DNA of 38,830 bases from Candidatus Vogelbacteria bacterium (lineage in GTDB: Bacteria > Patescibacteriota > Minisyncoccia > Phycocordibacterales > XYD1-FULL-46-19), in assembly GCA_016188295.1 (NCBI GenBank), contig JACPIA010000010.1, positions 1 through 38,830 of the forward strand, given 5' to 3'. Below are positions 146-38,762 of the stretch, piece after piece. Both the position numbers and the translations under genes were made by a program. Position 1 is the stretch's first letter, and each line of letters opens with the position of its first letter. Under the pieces are notes generated by a model. That model worked only from the letters and a program-made list of their open reading frames with translations. It was not told where the DNA came from and searched no databases.

Positions 146-174
146 TTGACTTTTTAAGTATACGGGTGTATAAT
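146..174 (+). promoter_or_regulatory. Sigma70-like promoter of cassette 1 (TTGACT-N17-TATAAT)
   Basis: ttgact 146-151, 17-nt spacer, tataat 169-174; ~50 bp around it is nearly identical to 2439-2490. Confidence 0.8.
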
Positions 175-205
175 AATAGTATAGTTCTTTGATAAGACTT
201 GCGAT

Positions 206-255
206 TGGTCATAGCGAAAAGCGGCTTAAACCTAGGCCATTCCTCGCTATGACCA
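206..255 (+). promoter_or_regulatory. 5'UTR hairpin of cassette 1
   Basis: Perfect 12-bp inverted repeat tggtcatagcga (206-217) / tcgctatgacca (244-255) between promoter and start codon. Confidence 0.55.
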
Positions 256-324
256 CACAGGCCATGGTTCCTCCTCGGATGAGAGGAAAACGAAACGGGC
301 AAATTCGCCCAAGGAGATACAATC

Positions 325-993
325 ATGAGCACAGAATTCGCGATTGCGGACGTTCTGCCTGGCAAGCTGAACGCATTGGTCAAAAACCTGATGCGTCAGA
401 CTGGGCAAACCGATCCGAACGAAGCGGTTCGTCTCGTCAACTCGGGTGAATGGGTGGTCTCGCGACCGATCCGTTCGTGGCGTGAACAAGACGGCGTCAT
501 CTACTTCTCGGTCACCAGCGATGGCACGACCGGCGAAGACTGGATCACCCGGCTCAAGAACAAAGGTTTCCGCGTCGGAGACTACGCCAAGCAGGTGCTC
601 CGTTCGCCGGACTTCAAGCCGACCAACGGCGCGACGACCGAAGTCGCCGTTCTCAAGGGCATGCTCTTCGAGGACAACGATCGGATCACGAAGAAGATTC
701 GCGCCGAGGCCGACAAGCGCAAGCTCTCGAAGCCGAACGCCGAACTGGCCTACCTGATCCGTGACACGTTCACGGACGAGCAACTGGAACAGATGGGGTT
801 GTGGTACATCGTCACGATGCACGAACCCATCAACGATTCCGACGACGATCCGAGCTTGCTGGTCGCGAGCTGTTACGATGATGGTCGCTGGTTGGACGCG
901 TGCTGCGACGATCCTGGTTACGGGTGGTTTCGTGGCAGCGGGTTCGCGTTCGTCGTTTCGCATCCGCCAGCTGGCGGAAGTCCTCAACACTAA
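325..993 (+). CDS. Hypothetical protein, CPR-type cassette family with 'LIRDTFTDEQLEQMGLWYIVTMHEPINDSD' core (copy 1)
   Basis: 222-aa ORF with aaggag RBS; C-terminal core nearly identical to ORF 2577-3293; flanked by shared promoter and terminator. Confidence 0.8.
   Translation: MSTEFAIADVLPGKLNALVKNLMRQTGQTDPNEAVRLVNSGEWVVSRPIRSWREQDGVIYFSVTSDGTTGEDWITRLKNKGFRVGDYAKQVLRSPDFKPTNGATTEVAVLKGMLFEDNDRITKKIRAEADKRKLSKPNAELAYLIRDTFTDEQLEQMGLWYIVTMHEPINDSDDDPSLLVASCYDDGRWLDACCDDPGYGWFRGSGFAFVVSHPPAGGSPQH
963..978. repeat. Palindrome TCCGCCAGCTGGCGGA
   Basis: Perfect 16-bp palindrome in the 3' end of the copy-1 ORF; related copies at 8428 and 38747. Confidence 0.75.
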
Positions 994-1028
994 GTCGCTT
1001 TGGACTCCGGTCCTTAGAAACTTAGTCC

Positions 1029-1068
1029 TTAGCCCTGTTCCGATCCGTCGGAGCAGGGCTAAATTTTT
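1029..1068 (+). terminator. Rho-independent terminator of cassette 1
   Basis: ttagccctgttccga-tccg-tcggagcagggctaa stem followed by a T-run; near-identical to 3297-3336. Confidence 0.85.
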
Positions 1069-1079
1069 GCATAATAAAT

Positions 1080-2096
1080 TTAATAATTTACCGTGCGTTG
1101 ATTATAGTTCGGGTCAACACATCTCATTCCTTTTCCAACTTTCTGCGATTCAAGAGGTGCACATTGCGTTGGATAATTATCTTCGCTCACGAGTTTTAAT
1201 GAATCTCCATCGAAATAGTAATATTCTGCTATCTTAATTTGGCTTGAGTTGCCAGTAAGCGCGTACACTTTCCCGTCAGCACTTACATCGGAAATCGCTA
1301 CGTAATCATCGTTGTAGTGATTTTCAACAGATGGCGTAATTTTCAAATTCAGTGCGTTATAAACTTTGTCGTAATCCGAGAGAGCTTTTCCACAGGTTAC
1401 GGTTACCGTACTTCGCCCCGGAGCTTGATATCCCCATTCGGATTTTAAAACAATATCATAAATGCTATCTCCTTTTTTGAAAGCAAATACCTGCAAAATA
1501 TCTTTGTTCGAAAAAGTTTTGAGCGGTAAAGTGTTAAGCGAATCAACCGCAAAACCGAGTTCTTTTGCTTTTTCATTTATTGATTGACTTATCAATTTAG
1601 AATCATTTTCAATGGCCGATGTAATAAAATCGTTTGAACGAAAATTATTCTGGTCTCCATAAACAGCTTGAACGCCATTTATGATTGGATAAGTTATAAA
1701 TGGCTCTGATGTATTCCTTTGCCAACGGAAACTGGTAATTACGTATGGATTCATCTGCATCACGCTCTGATTATCTGGCGATTGAATAGTCTTAGAAATA
1801 TAATCAGAAAGCTCAGAAAAGTTTCCGCAAGTAACAGTTGGGGTTGTTGGATTGTTATTATTGATGGTATTTTCAGGATTCTGTTGAACTTGATTTTGAG
1901 ATTGCGTGTTCGTTGGCGGATTAACTTTGCTATTTTTGTATAAATATATTCCGCCCACAATCAAAGCTATAAGAATTATTGCTCCACCAAAATTAACGGC
2001 AATTCTATTTTTTGGCTCAGGGGTTGGCGGCATTTGAGAATTTTCTGGCATTGGTTGGTTTAAATTTTGATTATCCATATTTTTATTATTTAACAT
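1080..2096 (-). CDS. Hypothetical single-pass membrane protein
   Basis: 338 aa; Pro/Asn-rich N-terminus, TM segment IAVNFGGAIILIALIVGGIYLY, Asn/Gln/Thr-rich linker, extracytoplasmic domain. Confidence 0.7.
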   Translation of the reverse strand: MLNNKNMDNQNLNQPMPENSQMPPTPEPKNRIAVNFGGAIILIALIVGGIYLYKNSKVNPPTNTQSQNQVQQNPENTINNNNPTTPTVTCGNFSELSDYISKTIQSPDNQSVMQMNPYVITSFRWQRNTSEPFITYPIINGVQAVYGDQNNFRSNDFITSAIENDSKLISQSINEKAKELGFAVDSLNTLPLKTFSNKDILQVFAFKKGDSIYDIVLKSEWGYQAPGRSTVTVTCGKALSDYDKVYNALNLKITPSVENHYNDDYVAISDVSADGKVYALTGNSSQIKIAEYYYFDGDSLKLVSEDNYPTQCAPLESQKVGKGMRCVDPNYNQRTVNY

Positions 2097-2166
2097 TTAA
2101 ACTCACTATATTACTTATAGTCTACTCCCCCCAACAATTTTCGCAATACTCCAGTGTTTGAGTAAT

Positions 2167-2193
2167 CATTGTCAAGGCGAGGCCTTGACAATG
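2167..2193. repeat. Perfect inverted repeat cattgtcaaggc-gag-gccttgacaatg
   Basis: 12-bp arms with 3-nt loop in the intergenic region. Confidence 0.7.
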
Positions 2194-2260
2194 GGCCCCA
2201 TGTAGAAATACAAGGGGTTTTACTTTTTGTTGTACAAAACCTTAACCCCCAAAGCGCACG

Positions 2261-2440
2261 CCCCGCCCTTCAGGGCGGGGGGTCTAGCCACATCTCGTTC
2301 TGCTTCCCAGTGCGATATACTCCAGATATGTCACCAAACGCGGTTTGGTGGTATGAATGTTGTCGCAGGTACGTGAATATATCAACAAGCAATGGGAAGC
2401 AGAACGGAACAGTGCAAGCTCCAGCCTTTAGGCCGGTGAG
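2261..2440. mobile_element. Candidate non-autonomous IS200/IS605-like (PATE/MITE-like) element or structured RNA
   Basis: Hairpin ccccgccc-ttca-gggcgggg (2261-2280) on the left and ccagcc-ttta-ggccgg (2421-2436) on the right; nested inverted repeats 2296-2309/2393-2406 (14 bp) and 2332-2339/2343-2350 (8 bp); no credible ORF. Confidence 0.4.
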
Positions 2441-2441
2441 G

Positions 2442-2470
2442 TTGACTTTTTAAGTATACGGGTGTATAAT
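2442..2470 (+). promoter_or_regulatory. Sigma70-like promoter of cassette 2 (TTGACT-N17-TATAAT)
   Basis: ttgact 2442-2447, 17-nt spacer, tataat 2465-2470; near-identical to 146-174 and flanks. Confidence 0.8.
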
Positions 2471-2576
2471 AGTGGTATAGTTCTTTGATAGTCTGCGAGG
2501 CTGTGGCGAAGAGTTCAGCACTAACCCAAGAGCATGCCGATAAGTCGGCGAGCTCACAACCAGAAAGGAACATGCT

Positions 2577-3293
2577 ATGAATAGCGAGTTCACATTGAGT
2601 CAGGGGGCCGGTCAGAAACTGGAGTTTGCCATCCAACGCAACGGAGGTACACCCGAAGATGTCGACTACTTGAGCACCGGCAACAACTTCCGCGCGGTCA
2701 CACTGTTGCGGACAGGAAAAGCCAAGCTCGTCGAAGTCACCGAAACGGGAAGCGAAATGGCCGTCATTCCGACGGCCCCAACCCTTCCCACCTGGATCGT
2801 CGACAACGAAGACAACATCCACTTCACGCTCACCTCGAATGGCTTCACCCGCGAACAGTGGGAACAGCACCTCGAGCGTCGTGGTTGGCGAATCGGCGAC
2901 TATGCACGTCAAATGTTGCGTCGCGCAAGTGAAGCGCCGACCGATGGCGTCACCTACAGCATCGTGGTGTGTCCGGGCAAGAAGATCAGCGACAGCAAAC
3001 GTGTCACGGATAATATTCGTGCGGCCGCCAACAAGAAAGGCTGGCTCAAGCCTCATTGGGAGGTCGCCTGCCTGATCCGCGACACGTTCACGGACGAGCA
3101 ACTGGAACAGATGGGTTTGTGGTACATCGTCACGATGCACGAACCCATCAACGATTCCGACGGCGATCCGAGCTTGCTGAACGCGAACCGTCGCGGCGAT
3201 GGTCGCTGGCTCTACGCGTCCCGCGGCAGGTCTGACTACAAGTGGTATCGTGACGGCGGGTTCGCGTTCGCCGTGTCGCAAGTTGGTCCTTAG
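2577..3293 (+). CDS. Hypothetical protein, same cassette family (copy 2)
   Basis: 238-aa ORF; N-terminus divergent from copy 1, C-terminal core LIRDTFTDEQLEQMGLWYIVTMHEPINDSDGDPSLL nearly identical at nucleotide level. Confidence 0.8.
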   Translation: MNSEFTLSQGAGQKLEFAIQRNGGTPEDVDYLSTGNNFRAVTLLRTGKAKLVEVTETGSEMAVIPTAPTLPTWIVDNEDNIHFTLTSNGFTREQWEQHLERRGWRIGDYARQMLRRASEAPTDGVTYSIVVCPGKKISDSKRVTDNIRAAANKKGWLKPHWEVACLIRDTFTDEQLEQMGLWYIVTMHEPINDSDGDPSLLNANRRGDGRWLYASRGRSDYKWYRDGGFAFAVSQVGP

Positions 3294-3296
3294 CCC

Positions 3297-3336
3297 TTAG
3301 CCCTGTTCCGATCCGTCGGAGCGGGGCTAAATTTTT
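3297..3336 (+). terminator. Rho-independent terminator of cassette 2
   Basis: ttagccctgttccga-tccg-tcggagcggggctaa plus T-run. Confidence 0.85.
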
Positions 3337-3347
3337 TATCAAACTAA

Positions 3348-8195: not shown

Positions 8196-9440
8196 GTGAA
8201 AGACAAACAAATTGGGGAGTTAATTCAAGCGGAAGAGGAACGCCAAGTGGGCATGATCAATTTAATTGCGTCCGAGAATTATGTCTCAGATGATGTGCTT
8301 GAGGCCTTAGGTTCAAAGTTGACTAACAAATATGCCGAAGGGTATCCAGGCGCTCGTTATTATGGTGGCAACAATGTCATCGATCAAGTAGAGCGCGAGT
8401 GTCAAAAGCGCGCTCTGGAGCTTTTTATCCGCCAGCCGGCGGATCGGGTTAACTGGGCGGTTAATGTCCAACCACTTTCAGGCTCGCCAGCTAATGTGGC
8501 GGTGTACTTAGCGTTAGTTCCTTCAAATGGAAAGATTATGGGTATGACTTTGGCCCATGGCGGTCATCTTACTCACGGTCATAAAGTCTCGATCACAGGC
8601 AAAATGTGGCAACAAGTACCGTTTGGGGTAGACCCTAAAACGGAGCTTATTAACTACGAGGAGATTAAACAGTTGGCCCTCAAAGAAAAACCAAATATTA
8701 TTGTGGCGGGATTTACGGCTTATCCTAGGGTGATTGAGTGGCAAAAATTCCGCGACATTGCCGATGCGTGTGGTGCTTATTTAATGGTGGACATATCGCA
8801 TGTCGCTGGTTTGGTGGCCGGGGGAGCCTACCCGTCACCTTTCCCATATGCTGATGTGGTGACGACGACCACGCACAAAACGTTGCGGGGCCCACGCTCG
8901 GCGCTTATCTTCTCTCGTAAAATTAACGCTCGGCCAACCAACCTAAAAACCACAGTCAATGAGGTAAATGGTTTTTCGGCCGGTCAGCCTCGCTTAATTA
9001 GTGAATTAATCGACAAAGCCGTTTTCCCAGGGATGCAAGGTGGGCCGCATTTAAATCAAATCGCCGCGGTAGCTGTGGCGCTAGGTGAGGCGGCAACTCC
9101 AGAGTTTGCGGACTATACTCGACAAGTAGTCCAAAATGCGCAGGCGTTAGCTGGCGAATTGTCTCGACTTGGTTGGCGCTTGGTCTCTGGGGGTACGGAC
9201 TCGCATCTCTTGTTGGTAGATACGTGGCTTAATGGTAAAGGTTTAAGTGGTGGTGAGGCTAGTGATCGATTAGAAAAAGCGGGGATTATTGTTAATAAAA
9301 ACGCGATTCCAGGTGATACTCGTCCACCAATCGATCCATCTGGTATTCGCTTAGGCACCGCTGCGGAAACGACTCGCGGTAAAAAAGAGCGAGACATGGT
9401 GGAGATCGCTGGGCGAATTAATAAAATTTTAAGAGAATAA
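8196..9440 (+). CDS. glyA: Serine hydroxymethyltransferase (GTG start)
   Basis: MINLIASENYVS, NKYAEGYPGARYYGG, VVTTTTHKTLRGPRSALI. Confidence 0.96.
   Translation: MKDKQIGELIQAEEERQVGMINLIASENYVSDDVLEALGSKLTNKYAEGYPGARYYGGNNVIDQVERECQKRALELFIRQPADRVNWAVNVQPLSGSPANVAVYLALVPSNGKIMGMTLAHGGHLTHGHKVSITGKMWQQVPFGVDPKTELINYEEIKQLALKEKPNIIVAGFTAYPRVIEWQKFRDIADACGAYLMVDISHVAGLVAGGAYPSPFPYADVVTTTTHKTLRGPRSALIFSRKINARPTNLKTTVNEVNGFSAGQPRLISELIDKAVFPGMQGGPHLNQIAAVAVALGEAATPEFADYTRQVVQNAQALAGELSRLGWRLVSGGTDSHLLLVDTWLNGKGLSGGEASDRLEKAGIIVNKNAIPGDTRPPIDPSGIRLGTAAETTRGKKERDMVEIAGRINKILRE
8428..8443. repeat. Palindrome TCCGCCAGCCGGCGGA inside glyA
   Basis: Arms perfectly complementary (atccgcc-agcc-ggcggat); same consensus as 963-978 and 38747-38762. 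Confidence 0.6.
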
Positions 9441-9554: not shown

Positions 9555-11204
9555 ATGATTACGGTAGAATTAAAACAATTAATTACCAAGGCCTGCGAGC
9601 AGGCGGGTTTTAGCGATGTGGAAGTTAAATTAGAACATCCTGATGATTTAGTTAATGGTGATTATGCCAGTAACGTCGCTCTGATGTTGGCAAAACAGGT
9701 TGGTCAAGCCCCTAAAGACGTGGCCGAGAAGATTAAAACTAATTTCGCAAGTAATTCTCTAATTAAAAAAATTGAGGTGGCGGGGCCGGGGTTTTTAAAC
9801 TTTTTTTTGAATGATCGATTTTTTACTGATCGACTGAAAATTATTTTAGCTCAAGGTGATAGTTATGGCCAAAACAAGGATGTTGAGGGTTATAAGGTGA
9901 TGGTGGAGTATACCGACCCTAATCCATTTAAAGCTTTCCATATTGGACATCTGATGTCTAATAGTATTGGTGAGGCGATTAGTCGTATTGCCGAGGCCAG
10001 CGGGGCCGAGGTTAAACGCGCTTGTTATCAAGGTGATGTCGGTATGCACGTGGCTAAAGCGCTGTATGGTCTTAAGGCCGGTCAAAATTTAATGACCGCT
10101 TACGCTTTTGGCTCTAAGGCTTATGACGAGAATGAGACGGCTAAAGCTCAAATTATTGAGTTCAATAAAAAAATCTATAATCGTAATGATGAAGAAATAA
10201 ATAAATTATACGATGGCGGGCGGGCTGAAAGTTTAGAACAATTTGAAACTATTTATCAGAAATTAGGGACTAAATTTGATTTTAATTTTTTTGAGAGCGA
10301 GGTGGCCGGATTTGGTAAAGAATTAGTCGAGCAAAATATTGATACCGTCTTTACTAACAGTGATGGCGCGGTGGTGTACGCGGGAGAGAAAGATGGCTTG
10401 CATACTAGGGTGTTTATTAATTCCGAAGGTTTGCCCACTTATGAGGCCAAGGAACTAGGCTTAGCTAAAATAAAACATGACACTTATCCTTATGATTATT
10501 CGATCGTGGTGACGGCCAATGAGATTACGGAATATTTTAAAGTATTATTGGCGGCGCTCAAACAAATTTACCCGGAGTTGGCTGGTAAGACTCGTCACGT
10601 GCCGCATGGGATGTTGCGTTTGCCCACAGGTAAAATGTCGTCGCGCACTGGTGAGGTGATCACGGCCGAATCTCTAATTGAGGAAGTGAAGCAAAAAATC
10701 GCCACTAAAGTTAAAGAGGCTAAAAAGGAGAGTAATTTAGATGACGCCACTTTAGAGCAGGTAGCGATTGGGGCCATTAAATACTCCATTTTAAAACAAG
10801 ATATTACTAAAGATATTATTTTTGATTTAGAGAAATCGATTTCCTTTGAGGGGAACTCGGGGCCCTATCTCCAATATACTTACGCTCGTACTCAGTCGGT
10901 GTTGGCTAAAGCCACGACAGAAGGCTTGATGATCGATGCGGCTAAAGTTGAGGTGCCTGGATTGGTGGAGAAATTGTTAACTCGTTATCCGGAGATAGTT
11001 TATAAAGCGGGAGAGAATTTGGCACCGCACCATCTGACTACTTACTTAACCGAGCTTGCTAGTGCTTTTAATGCTTATTATGCTAGTCATAAAATTGTCG
11101 GTGGCGAGGCGGGAGGGTATCGCTTGGCTTTGTCTGCGGCCGTCGGTCAGACGCTCAAAAATGGTCTCAAGCTGTTAGGGTTGGCCACACCCGAGCGGAT
11201 GTAG
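9555..11204 (+). CDS. argS: Arginyl-tRNA synthetase
   Basis: VEYTDPNPFKAFHIGHLMSNSIGEAISR; GMLRLPTGKMSSRTGEVITAE. Confidence 0.97.
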   Translation: MITVELKQLITKACEQAGFSDVEVKLEHPDDLVNGDYASNVALMLAKQVGQAPKDVAEKIKTNFASNSLIKKIEVAGPGFLNFFLNDRFFTDRLKIILAQGDSYGQNKDVEGYKVMVEYTDPNPFKAFHIGHLMSNSIGEAISRIAEASGAEVKRACYQGDVGMHVAKALYGLKAGQNLMTAYAFGSKAYDENETAKAQIIEFNKKIYNRNDEEINKLYDGGRAESLEQFETIYQKLGTKFDFNFFESEVAGFGKELVEQNIDTVFTNSDGAVVYAGEKDGLHTRVFINSEGLPTYEAKELGLAKIKHDTYPYDYSIVVTANEITEYFKVLLAALKQIYPELAGKTRHVPHGMLRLPTGKMSSRTGEVITAESLIEEVKQKIATKVKEAKKESNLDDATLEQVAIGAIKYSILKQDITKDIIFDLEKSISFEGNSGPYLQYTYARTQSVLAKATTEGLMIDAAKVEVPGLVEKLLTRYPEIVYKAGENLAPHHLTTYLTELASAFNAYYASHKIVGGEAGGYRLALSAAVGQTLKNGLKLLGLATPERM

Positions 11205-11243: not shown

Positions 11244-14200
11244 ATGGCCGAAAATAAGGACAAAAGTGAAGTCGCTAAACGAGAAGAAGAAATTCTAGCT
11301 TTTTGGACTAAGGAGCAAATTTTTAAACAAAGCATTAATAAAGAGGCACCACAGGGTGACTATGTTTTTTACGATGGGCCACCGTTTGCCACTGGTTTGC
11401 CTCACTATGGCCATATTTTAGCGAGTACGATTAAAGATGTTATTCCGCGTTATCAAACGATGAAGGGTCATCGAGTAGAGCGTCGTTGGGGCTGGGATTG
11501 TCATGGTTTGCCGATTGAAAATTTGGTGGAGCAAGACTTAAAAATGGCTGGGAAAAAACAAATAGAGGAACTGGGGATCGATGTTTTTAATGAACATGCT
11601 CGTAGTAAAGTATTGGGTTATGTCCATGAGTGGAAAAGAACTATTGAACGGATTGCCCGCTGGGTTGACTTTGATGATTCTTACAAAACGATGAGCAATA
11701 GTTATATGGAATCCGTTTGGTGGGCATTGGGTGAGGTCCATAAAAAGGGTCTACTGTATGAAAGTGTTAAAGTTTTACCATATTGCCCTCATTGTGAGAC
11801 TCCGATCGCTAATTCAGAAATAGCGATGGATAATAGTTATCAGGATATTGCCGACCTCTCGGTTTATGTAAAGTTTGAATTAGTCGATGAACGGGGTACT
11901 TACTTATTAGCGTGGACTACCACTCCTTGGACTTTACCTGGCAATACCGCTATCGCGGTCAACAAAGATCTTATTTACGTTAAAGCTAAAAAAGATTCTG
12001 ATATATTGATTGTGGCTAAAGAATTAGTACCAAAAATTCTAAAAGATAACTATGAAATAATTGGTGAAATATCGGGCCAGAGTTTGATCGGTAAACGATA
12101 TATTCCGGTATTTGACTATTATAAAAATTTTCCAATCGCCACTAATAAAAATATTTGGAAAGTTTGGTCGGCCGATTTTGTTACCTTGGATAAAGGTACG
12201 GGTATTGCTCACGAAGCTCCAGCTTTTGGTGAAGAAGATGCTGTTTTAGCCTTGGCTAACGATATTCCGTTAATTAAGCATGTCGGTTTGGACGGAAAAT
12301 TTTTACCGGAGATTGTCCATTTAGCTGGTTTATCCGTTAAACCAAAACCTACCACCATTGACCCAACTTTTTATCAGTCAACCGACATCGAAATTATCAA
12401 GCTGTTGGCTAGTAAAGGGGCGTTATTTGCTAAAGAAAAAATTATCCATTCGTATCCTCATTGTTTTCGTTGTGAGACTCCGCTCTTGTACTATGCGGTT
12501 CCCGCTTGGTTTATTAAAATTCAAAATCTTAAACCAGAATTGTTAGCACTCAATGAGGATATTAATTGGATTCCTAGCCACTTGAAAAGTGGTCGATTTA
12601 AAAAGAGTATGGAGGCCGCTCCAGACTGGAATATTTCGCGTAATCGTTTTTGGGCCTCGCCTCTACCTTTTTGGAAATGCGAATCGTGTAATGAGCTCGA
12701 GATCTTATCTTCAGTTAAAGAGCTATTAGCTAAGACTCCTTCTCGCAGTAATCAGTTTATTTTAATGCGTCATGGTGAGACCGAAGAGAATGTCCGGGAT
12801 GTTATCAGTGATGACCCGACGGAAAAAAATGCTTTAAGTCCAAACGGTCGAATTGAAGTCTTAAAGACCGCTCAGAATTTAAAAAATAAAGGAATCACTA
12901 AAATTTTTACCTCACCATTTTTACGGGCCCAAGAAACAGCTGAAATAGTTGCTGATACAATTGGTTTTTCTAATCAGGACATCATCACCAAAGAACAGCT
13001 AAGGGAGATTAAAACCGGGGGTTTTAATGGTAAGACTTGGACGGAATTTAACGCTCAATTCAAAGATAGGAATGAACGTTACTTTAAAGCGTTACCAGGT
13101 GGAGAGACAATATTTGATATTTCAACCAGAATGTTAGAGACAATTATGGAAATTAATAATACTAATGAAAACGAGACGATACTTATCATCTCGCATGGTT
13201 TACCTCTATTCTTGGCTGAACAATATCTTAATTTGCGTACTACCGAAGAACTCTTGCTTAAAGACAAGTGGACTCCACTTTACTTTAAAACAGGTGAGGC
13301 TAGAGAAGTGCTGGTGCGTCCATACCCACATAATAAACATCATGAATTTGATTTACATAGGCCGTACATCGATCAAATAACTTGGTCTTGTCAGTGTGGT
13401 GGGGTTAAAAGACGAATTCCTGAAGTGGTTGATTGTTGGTTTGAATCTGGCTCAATGCCATTTGCCCAACAACATTATCCGATTGAAAATAAAGAATGGT
13501 TTGCCAATAATTTTCCAGCTGATTTTGTGGCGGAATATATTGCTCAAACTCGAACTTGGTTTTACTACATGCACGTCGTATCGACACTGCTTTTTAAGCG
13601 CGCTCCTTTTAAGAATGTGGTTACTACCGGTACGGTTCTCGCAGAAGATGGTCAAAAAATGTCAAAATCAAAAGGTAATTTTTCTGATCCGTGGATTTTA
13701 TTCGATCGATATGGTGTTGATGCCCTCCGCTACTATCTTTTAGCATCGCCATTGATGAAATCGGAGGACCTCAATTTTTCAGAGAAAGAAGTCCAAGAAG
13801 TGTATCGAAAAACCGTCCAAAGATTAAATAATGTCGTTTCTTTCTACGAGATGTATAAAGAGGGGGAAGTTATCGAGGGCGATTCCGATAATATTTTGGA
13901 TATCTGGATAAAATCTCGTTTACAACAGACAATCTCGGAAATAGGTGACTCCATGAATGTCTATGAACTGGAACGAGCAGTCCGGCCGATTGGTGATTTT
14001 ATCGATGATCTTTCTAATTGGTATATACGCCGCTCGCGCGATCGCTTCAAAAGCGATGATGTCGTCGATCGGAGGGCATCAATAAACACGACTCGGAAGG
14101 TGCTTAAGCAATTAGCTAAAGCCATAGCGCCTTTTATGCCCTTTATGGCCGAAGATATTTTTCAAAAATTAAAACTAGATAAAGATCCAATCAGTGTCCA

Positions 14201-14747
14201 TTTAACCGATTGGCCAAAGGCCGAAATTGAGTCCGAGAGTTATAATTTAGAATTATTGGCTGATATGACTAAGGTGCGCCAAGTGGTGGAGCAGGCTTTA
14301 GCCTTGCGCTCTAAAGCAGGGATCAAGGTCCGTCAACCACTAGCGAGTTTGACGATTAATTTTGAGTTAAAGCCAGAATTACGACAAATTATGGCTGAAG
14401 AAATTAATGTTAAAAAAATTACGATTGACGAATCGGTAACCGCTTTAATTTTAGATATTAATTTAACCTCAGAGTTAATAGCCGAGGGTGAAATGCGAGA
14501 ATTTACCCGCCAAATTCAAGAGTGGCGCAAAGTCCAAGGTTACACTCCCAACCAACAAATTAGTTTAATGGTTAAGGTGGACAAGGCGGGGCAAACTTTA
14601 CTTAAACAATTTGAATCGGAGATTAAACGAATTATCAGAGCGAATGAAATTATTTTAACGACTGATCGAAAGAATAGTGAGGGGATAGAAATAAAAACAG
14701 GTATTCATACTTTTACCATTTATGGCCCATTATCGGTACGAGACTAA
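11244..14747 (+). CDS. ileS: Isoleucyl-tRNA synthetase with inserted histidine-phosphatase (PGM-like) domain
   Basis: YDGPPFATGLPHYGHILAS, AWTTTPWTLPGNTA, DWNISRNRFWASPLPFW, KMSKSKGN; internal FILMRHGETEEN...IISHG domain. Confidence 0.96.
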   Translation: MAENKDKSEVAKREEEILAFWTKEQIFKQSINKEAPQGDYVFYDGPPFATGLPHYGHILASTIKDVIPRYQTMKGHRVERRWGWDCHGLPIENLVEQDLKMAGKKQIEELGIDVFNEHARSKVLGYVHEWKRTIERIARWVDFDDSYKTMSNSYMESVWWALGEVHKKGLLYESVKVLPYCPHCETPIANSEIAMDNSYQDIADLSVYVKFELVDERGTYLLAWTTTPWTLPGNTAIAVNKDLIYVKAKKDSDILIVAKELVPKILKDNYEIIGEISGQSLIGKRYIPVFDYYKNFPIATNKNIWKVWSADFVTLDKGTGIAHEAPAFGEEDAVLALANDIPLIKHVGLDGKFLPEIVHLAGLSVKPKPTTIDPTFYQSTDIEIIKLLASKGALFAKEKIIHSYPHCFRCETPLLYYAVPAWFIKIQNLKPELLALNEDINWIPSHLKSGRFKKSMEAAPDWNISRNRFWASPLPFWKCESCNELEILSSVKELLAKTPSRSNQFILMRHGETEENVRDVISDDPTEKNALSPNGRIEVLKTAQNLKNKGITKIFTSPFLRAQETAEIVADTIGFSNQDIITKEQLREIKTGGFNGKTWTEFNAQFKDRNERYFKALPGGETIFDISTRMLETIMEINNTNENETILIISHGLPLFLAEQYLNLRTTEELLLKDKWTPLYFKTGEAREVLVRPYPHNKHHEFDLHRPYIDQITWSCQCGGVKRRIPEVVDCWFESGSMPFAQQHYPIENKEWFANNFPADFVAEYIAQTRTWFYYMHVVSTLLFKRAPFKNVVTTGTVLAEDGQKMSKSKGNFSDPWILFDRYGVDALRYYLLASPLMKSEDLNFSEKEVQEVYRKTVQRLNNVVSFYEMYKEGEVIEGDSDNILDIWIKSRLQQTISEIGDSMNVYELERAVRPIGDFIDDLSNWYIRRSRDRFKSDDVVDRRASINTTRKVLKQLAKAIAPFMPFMAEDIFQKLKLDKDPISVHLTDWPKAEIESESYNLELLADMTKVRQVVEQALALRSKAGIKVRQPLASLTINFELKPELRQIMAEEINVKKITIDESVTALILDINLTSELIAEGEMREFTRQIQEWRKVQGYTPNQQISLMVKVDKAGQTLLKQFESEIKRIIRANEIILTTDRKNSEGIEIKTGIHTFTIYGPLSVRD

Positions 14748-32466: not shown

Positions 32467-32497
32467 CACCAATTACTTATCCTTAGGTTTCTTTTTA

Positions 32498-32512
32498 TGA
32501 GGAGTTTCCTCA
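32498..32512. repeat. REP-like hairpin copy 1 (TGAGGA-GTT-TCCTCA)
   Basis: Perfect 6-bp stem; identical to 32541-32555. Confidence 0.75.
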
Positions 32513-32540
32513 AAATAAAATTTATCCACCATTACTGTTA

Positions 32541-32555
32541 TGAGGAGTTTCCTCA
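32541..32555. repeat. REP-like hairpin copy 2 (TGAGGA-GTT-TCCTCA)
   Basis: Identical to copy 1, both within shared ttatgaggagtttcctca. Confidence 0.75.
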
Positions 32556-32574
32556 TATGTTATATTTAAATAAA

Positions 32575-33252
32575 ATGGAAAGAAAAACTATTTTTACCGA
32601 AGGGGAATGGTATCACCTTTATAATCGGGGTACTGATAAAAGAAAAATATTTACTGACAATAACGATTATCAAAGATTTTTAAAATTATTGTATTTAGCC
32701 AATTCAACCAAACCAACTATTCTTTATACCCTAAAAAAAGACACTATTTTTGATTTTCCTCGCGAAGAAAATTTAGTAGATATTGGGGCGTACTGTCTAA
32801 TGCCTAACCATTTTCATCTTCTGGTTAAAGAAAAGGTTGAGGGTGGTATCAGTTTATTTATGAGGAAACTCCTCACAGGTTATTCGATGTATTTTAATAT
32901 TAAGAATAAGAGGACTGGTAAGTTGTTTGAGGGGCCGTTTAAGTCGATACATGTTGATACTGATAATTATTTCAGATATGTATTATCTTATATCCATTTA
33001 AATCCGGTTAAATTGGTGGAACCCGAGTGGAAGGAGAAAGGAGTGCAGAATAAAGATAGGGTGAAAAATTTCTTACAATCTTATTCTCCATCAAGCCATT
33101 TGGATTATCTAAAGTTATCCGAGAAGAGTCCTCGGATAGAGCGCTGGATTTTAGCGACCGATGATTTGCCGATAGAGATCAAATCCAGAGATTTTGTAGA
33201 CGAACTTAATGATTGGTTAGAGTATCAGACAATGCTAAAATTAGATAAGTAA
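32575..33252 (+). CDS. REP-associated tyrosine transposase (RAYT; Y1_Tnp, IS200-like)
   Basis: YHLYNRGTDKRKIFTDNNDYQRFLKLL, AYCLMPNHFHLLVKE (HUH), LTGYSMYFNIKNKRTGKLFEGPFKSIHV, YVLSYIHLNPVK; start at MERK preferred over the 32497 ORF start. Confidence 0.92.
   Translation: MERKTIFTEGEWYHLYNRGTDKRKIFTDNNDYQRFLKLLYLANSTKPTILYTLKKDTIFDFPREENLVDIGAYCLMPNHFHLLVKEKVEGGISLFMRKLLTGYSMYFNIKNKRTGKLFEGPFKSIHVDTDNYFRYVLSYIHLNPVKLVEPEWKEKGVQNKDRVKNFLQSYSPSSHLDYLKLSEKSPRIERWILATDDLPIEIKSRDFVDELNDWLEYQTMLKLDK
32861..32875. repeat. REP-like hairpin copy 3, inside the RAYT ORF (TGAGGA-AAC-TCCTCA)
   Basis: Exact reverse complement of copies 1 and 2; also shares the ttat 5' flank. Confidence 0.7.
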
Positions 33253-38746: not shown

Positions 38747-38762
38747 TCCGCCAACTGGCGGA
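38747..38762. repeat. Palindrome TCCGCCAACTGGCGGA
   Basis: Same consensus as 963-978 and 8428-8443, flanked by gagt/actc. Confidence 0.65.

Follow-up and report, generated by a model that had tools for sequence, protein, structure and literature searches.

Target genes of diversity-generating retroelements (DGRs) are already known in Patescibacteria; the expression of DGR targets and the origin of new ones are little explored, and most patescibacterial targets are functionally undescribed. The closest described systems are the clade 2 DGRs of the Candidate Phyla Radiation (CPR), which comprise a reverse transcriptase (RT), Avd, a template repeat and a target gene with a C-terminal variable repeat (VR) subject to adenine mutagenesis; no transmembrane or other conserved domain could be recognised in their targets, the study that describes them states that it did not detect remote targets, and its text nowhere contains the words 'promoter' or 'leader' (Roux et al. 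2021, PMC8144416). The present analysis concerns two gene cassettes, A (144-1068) and B (2440-3337), both on the forward strand and confirmed where an initial annotation had placed them, in a 38,830-base stretch from a Candidatus Vogelbacteria bacterium (JACPIA010000010.1; the window), which is the entire contig C5 of a genome of 573,798 bases in 11 contigs that is 95% complete. There is little doubt that A and B are target genes, encoding variable proteins, of a patescibacterial DGR. Clade 2 shares with them the organization outlined above, whereas here the targets are orphans with respect to the only RT and template, one of them combines two lineages by recombination, and the target transcript opens with a dedicated structured leader. 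The DGR of Bordetella phage BPP-1 is alike in having a 3'-terminal VR in its target gene, in the difference between VR and template at the 3' boundary, and in a hairpin past the VR; in contrast, Avd is here antisense between template and RT, the targets are cellular, and a leader is common to several orphan classes.

The evidence for this assignment lies at the 3' end of the two genes (A, 325-993, 222 amino acids; B, 2577-3293, 238 amino acids), the last ~42 codons of which are, by their mutation pattern, the VR of a DGR. Within these codons, which follow a shared core block, the differences between A and B fall mostly at residues that an adenine-rich template would encode. As the initial annotation had stated for CPR genomes, related proteins do exist, and 41 relatives of A were gathered from patescibacterial contigs together with two from whole genomes. 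At 20 of these loci (two of which, L012 and L041, are apparently the same contig) a second, AAC-rich copy of the VR stretch lies a few hundred bases downstream, followed in most cases by an Avd-like gene in antisense and then by an RT on the strand of the target. When VR and template are compared in these 20 relatives, mismatches affect 338 of the 627 adenines of the templates, as against 15 of their 1898 remaining bases (Fisher p about 1e-219, from alignments whose trimming penalised non-adenine mismatches and so leans slightly towards the adenine bias), and most pairs display no non-adenine mismatch at all over ~128 bases; this confinement of mismatches to adenines is the signature of a DGR. 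Against the template of L035/L043, the VR of A (838-962) differs at 17 of 29 adenines and 10 of 96 other bases (Fisher p 3e-7), and the VR of B (3156-3281) at 13 of 30 and 2 of 96, respectively (p 5e-8).

In a system of this kind, the RT together with Avd copies the template-repeat RNA with errors at its adenines, and the resulting cDNA takes the place of the 3'-terminal VR in the target gene; the final ~42 residues of the encoded protein are thereby rewritten, and everything before them stays fixed. The DGR may still be active in this genome. The 3' boundary, that is, the initiation of mutagenic homing sites of VR (IMH) and template (IMH*), reads mostly TCGCAAGT in the VRs and TCGCAACT in the templates of the relatives. 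In the window, B also reads TCGCAAGT, and in A the site is interrupted; the 3' edge of the A repeat carries an insertion, the 16-bp palindrome TCCGCCAGCTGGCGGA (963-978), of which the VR of B is free. Between gene and terminator, A further comprises a post-VR hairpin (990-1025; CTAAG..GGACTCCGGTCC..CTTAG); a similar sequence is found 3' of VRs in the relatives, and the hairpin has been lost from B.

Outside the VR, the two cassettes combine nearly identical and strongly divergent parts. The promoters (144-194 in A, 2440-2490 in B) are the same at 49 of 51 bases, a block that includes in both cases the -35 element TTGACT, the -10 element TATAAT and AGTTCTTTGATA; the sigma70-type promoter of A (144-182) has its -35 at 146-151 and its -10 at 169-174, separated by a 17-nt spacer, and the block of B likewise holds promoter and boxA-like motif. 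The core block (LIRDTFTDEQLEQMGLWYIVTMHEPINDSD in A, 754-843; 3072-3161 in B) is 98% identical at the DNA level over 90 nt, compared to 47% for the N-terminal part and 61% for the middle, the switch being sharp and located at about 754. Both genes show a G+C content of 58%, with a third-position G+C (GC3) of 0.71-0.74, against 43% in the remaining window. The near-identity of promoters and cores, the divergence of leaders and N-terminal parts, and the G+C enrichment over the neighbours had all been recognised in the initial annotation and hold. Its constant 3' end stands for the core and the terminator hairpin, whereas the core is followed by the VR, ~42 codons long; its constant terminators, both intrinsic (1029-1068 in A, 3297-3337 in B), do share the hairpin TAGCCCTGTTCCGATCCGTCGGAGCRGGGCTA, the additional hairpin at 990-1025 being particular to A; and its variable leader does differ between the two cassettes, although that of A forms a structured RNA with conservation of its own.

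By its identity profile, A is a chimera, with leader, N-terminus and middle from an A lineage and with promoter and core of the resident B type. Compared with the A-type genes of other genomes, A displays high identity from ~195 to 754, except for an N-terminal stretch at ~330-480, and identity to B is low in this region; past 754, A is 97% identical to B and 68-78% to most A types. The core of A is 70-82% identical to those of the A-type genes compared in other genomes and 98% to that of B, and, since the core of B is in turn 92% identical to the core of a B-like gene in the Vogelbacteria locus L071, the core of A is of the B type and represents a B-lineage recombinant tract. In the L071 Vogelbacterium itself, the A-like and B-like cores are unshared (69%). 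As far as the boxA-like motif, the promoter of A also resembles that of B, and the N-terminal part of A finds the closest counterpart, among those compared, in L034. B as a whole has its relative in the B-like gene of L071, and its leader (2491-2576), of a different type from that of A, resembles the leader of the same gene; that gene (L071, 9740-10462) carries an apparent frameshift near 10000, either a pseudogene mutation or a sequencing error.

An A-lineage block of ~195-754, spanning leader, N-terminus and middle, would have entered a resident B-type frame from another Patescibacterium, one crossover falling at the boxA-like motif and the other where the core begins. A single replacement from boxA to core explains the pattern, and two separate conversion tracts would do so equally; the order of events given here is the presumed one. 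Leader and middle of A reach ~90% identity to distant Patescibacteria. The middle is 89-91% identical at the DNA level to genes in genomes of the same phylum (G271) and the same class (G157), whereas for rplK, a conserved ribosomal gene, the identity between these genomes is 65%; the close A-type genes are mostly 57-62% G+C, and their flanks about 35 to 56%. The high identity of the middle against the low identity of rplK, together with the G+C contrast, points to horizontal movement of the cassettes, which are exchanged as blocks, and cassette A offers a clear case of such exchange of a target gene between patescibacterial lineages. The initial annotation's preference for recombination over plain duplication is hence upheld by an identity that does not decay uniformly along the gene and by the chimeric nature of A. 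Its dispersed multicopy family does not exist within the genome, where A and B are the only two copies; the family is, instead, widespread across Patescibacteria.

Upstream of A, where the structured leader RNA spans 183-324, and of most relatives, a conserved leader comprises, in this order, the promoter, the boxA-like motif GTTCTTTGATA (184-194), which opens the predicted transcript, and three hairpins of the consensus fold, P1 (TGGTCATAGCGA / TCGCTATGACCA, 206-255), which shows covariation, P2 (TTCCTCCTCGGATGAGAGGAA, 268-288) and P3 (GGGCAAATTCGCCC, 297-310), followed by the ribosome binding site AAGGAG. The covariance model built for it, R1, of which A is a training member, scores the leader of A at 158.7 bits (E 1.7e-43); the leader of B is not matched. 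In the alignment of 27 leaders, both partners have changed without loss of pairing in 19 of the 26 consensus pairs, and 96% of the cells pair; none of 500 shuffles reaches the observed values, and the covariation signal is gone when the pair partners are displaced by 1-3 columns. A second set, comprising 52 matches to the model, shows 98.1% pairing in P1 and two-sided changes in 9 of its 12 pairs; this alignment was fitted to the model and contains some hits to the palindromic P1 on the reverse strand, which makes it weaker evidence than the test on the 27 leaders. P2 and P3 are less constant than P1.

Searches with R1 disclose matches in 15 of 389 genomes of the phylum and in 59 of 392 genomes of the class. 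Among 40 loci outside the training set, the first open reading frame (ORF) holds a VR with a template downstream in 17, and an RT lies within 5 kb in 18; in one further locus (L168) the VR/template pair is found just past a short, apparently frameshifted first ORF, and the other first ORFs mostly show variable-protein-like ends, judged by eye, with no template nearby. The proteins behind the leader fall into several C-terminal classes, which ties the leader to the status of DGR target and not to one protein family. A weak match (L092) and a second match in L038 were set aside, the genes behind them lacking a variable-protein look; they may be false or confined to P1. Rfam 15 contains no match to the leader at E up to 1 for the window and up to 0.1 for the loci of five relatives, and a literature search, thin on subscription papers, returned no description of a leader RNA of DGR targets. 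The covarying fold and its linkage to DGR targets, read from the alignments and loci, are consistent across these sets, and, as far as Rfam and the literature searched extend, both a dedicated structured leader RNA and a clear recombination of cassettes between lineages appear to be new. Such a sequence-searchable RNA marks target genes even far from RT and template, a case that metagenome surveys report missing, and it provides a direct handle on orphan targets, with a structure that is biochemically testable.

As for the role of the leader, control of the transcription or translation of the target gene would be the likeliest one, possibly through boxA and Nus factors. The pattern YTCTTTRA matches 17 of 30 leaders, where shuffling predicts 0.11, and the motif recurs, as AGCTCTTTGACAATT, in the 16S leader of this genome. 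The arrangement is like that of rRNA leader boxA and phage nut sites, where NusB-S10 mediates antitermination (PMC4807359), in that a boxA-like GTTCTTTGATA / GCTCTTTGAAAA stands at the start of the transcript with a hairpin downstream of it; it differs in that the gene is here protein-coding and the motif is located at the extreme 5' end. That the leader uses the rRNA antitermination machinery is a reasonable guess from the motif, the alternatives being translational control or recognition by an RT/Avd complex. A broader proposal, put forward tentatively and with somewhat less than even confidence, holds that the leader is a dedicated RNA of patescibacterial DGRs, common to several classes of target and read by a trans-acting factor (the Nus complex, RT/Avd or a translational regulator) that would co-express hypermutable targets or couple them to retrohoming, the cassettes that carry it passing from lineage to lineage and recombining at boxA and at the core.

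No family was found for A or B in Pfam, NCBIfam, PHROGs or PADLOC at the thresholds used, with sub-threshold noise only, and no significant match in the PDB by sequence; neither a signal peptide nor a membrane segment is apparent by eye, which agrees with the account of CPR targets in Roux et al. (PMC8144416). The AlphaFold models have a mean predicted local distance difference test score (pLDDT) of 86 (A) and 83 (B), the confident regions being the middle and the C-terminal portion. Most of the best 50 PDB structure matches of A, although weak and with low TM-scores, are C-type lectin domains, the fold usual among DGR targets; a putative C-type-lectin-like tail may bind a ligand. Phage records contain no relative; a contig of IMG/VR classed as viral (L119) includes a relative of A with 54% identity. 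Five loci (L017, L023, L024, L025 and L027) display frames of 626-651 amino acids, some cut by the end of the locus, in which the C-terminal part matches A, representing other N-terminal architectures on a similar tail.

The genome has a DGR of its own on contig C4 (L010, 6131-7792), comprising its single RT match (RVT_1), an antisense Avd (PF22296 bAvd, 49.3 bits with a cut-off of 40; NCBIfam Avd model, 53.6 bits, below the cut-off of 80) and an asparagine-rich template-like repeat of a class other than the template of A and B. Several observations weigh against the favoured account of A and B: (i) neither the VRs nor the foreign template, used as queries, retrieve a template for A or B from the assembly, and the C4 template has no VR elsewhere in it; (ii) A carries 10 non-adenine differences from the foreign templates and the insertion at the VR edge, and B is devoid of the post-VR hairpin, and either copy may be frozen; (iii) the PDB and viral structure libraries yield no significant structural match (best E 0.058 for A and 0.09 for B), and the model of B shows no trend towards C-type lectins; and (iv) the strict YTCTTTRA pattern is absent from 13 of the 30 leaders, the boxA reading being drawn from the motif. 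The base-by-base comparison of the end of the RT contig and the VR/template scan of the window likewise disclosed no A/B template and no VR/template pair, respectively. With their own template absent from the assembly, A and B are orphan, or remote, targets here. The missing template, the different template class of the only RT, the changes in A and the hairpin lost from B would also fit relics, former DGR targets that came, by acquisition or inheritance, with no template of their own, are no longer diversified, and either serve an unchanging binding function or decay; this is a serious contender, a little short of an even chance. Against it, the assembly is incomplete, C4 breaking off less than 200 bases upstream of the template it carries and C5 starting 144 bases before A, and the missing partners may, as a guess, lie in the gap between the two contigs; the VR of B differs from foreign templates at just 2 of 96 non-adenine sites; and both reading frames are intact behind promoters close to consensus.

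Two further readings were weighed. Ordinary paralogues homogenised by gene conversion would account for the core tract of A, clearly derived from B, but not for the adenine-specific mismatches in the VRs of the window and in the 20 template-bearing relatives, mostly accompanied by Avd and RT, a pattern by which gene conversion without a retroelement is refuted for the family; for A and B the explanation is exceedingly improbable. The exchange of N-terminal parts between cassettes would suit modular effectors that act in interbacterial conflict or as part of a toxin system, with the arrangement considered in the initial annotation, an N-terminal effector that varies and a C-terminal module that does not. 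The hypervariable module is, however, the C-terminal VR, no catalytic domain is seen, and the Pfam, NCBIfam and PADLOC searches provide no toxin or defence family, apart from a 14-bit PADLOC match of B (E 0.007); this proposal is very unlikely, only marginally less so than gene conversion.

Several minor features deserve mention. The palindrome TCCGCCAGNNGGCGGA, with a chance expectation of 0 in the window, occurs there at 963-978, 8428-8443 and 38747-38762, and also in L010 (7709-7724), L079 (237-252) and L039 (8872-8887), the sites comprising the glyA reading frame, the VR edge of A, the loop of P1 in the leader of one relative, and, within this genome, the 16S leader and the vicinity of its own DGR template; it resembles the palindromic elements inserted in Rickettsia genes. 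A different palindromic insertion of ~35 nt is located just after the VR of L052 (gene 10001-10630), at the same 3' boundary as in A, and the start site of retrohoming may attract palindromic insertions. Between the two cassettes, 18-nt inverted repeats (94%) flank 75 nt (2296-2406), a unit that looks like a small non-autonomous element. Elsewhere in the window, the isoleucyl-tRNA synthetase frame (11244-14747) includes a stretch that, by eye, is histidine-phosphatase-like (FILMRHGETEENVRD...), and a gene resembling transposases of the tyrosine type associated with repetitive extragenic palindromes (REP; Y1_Tnp, PF01797) is found at 32497-33252.

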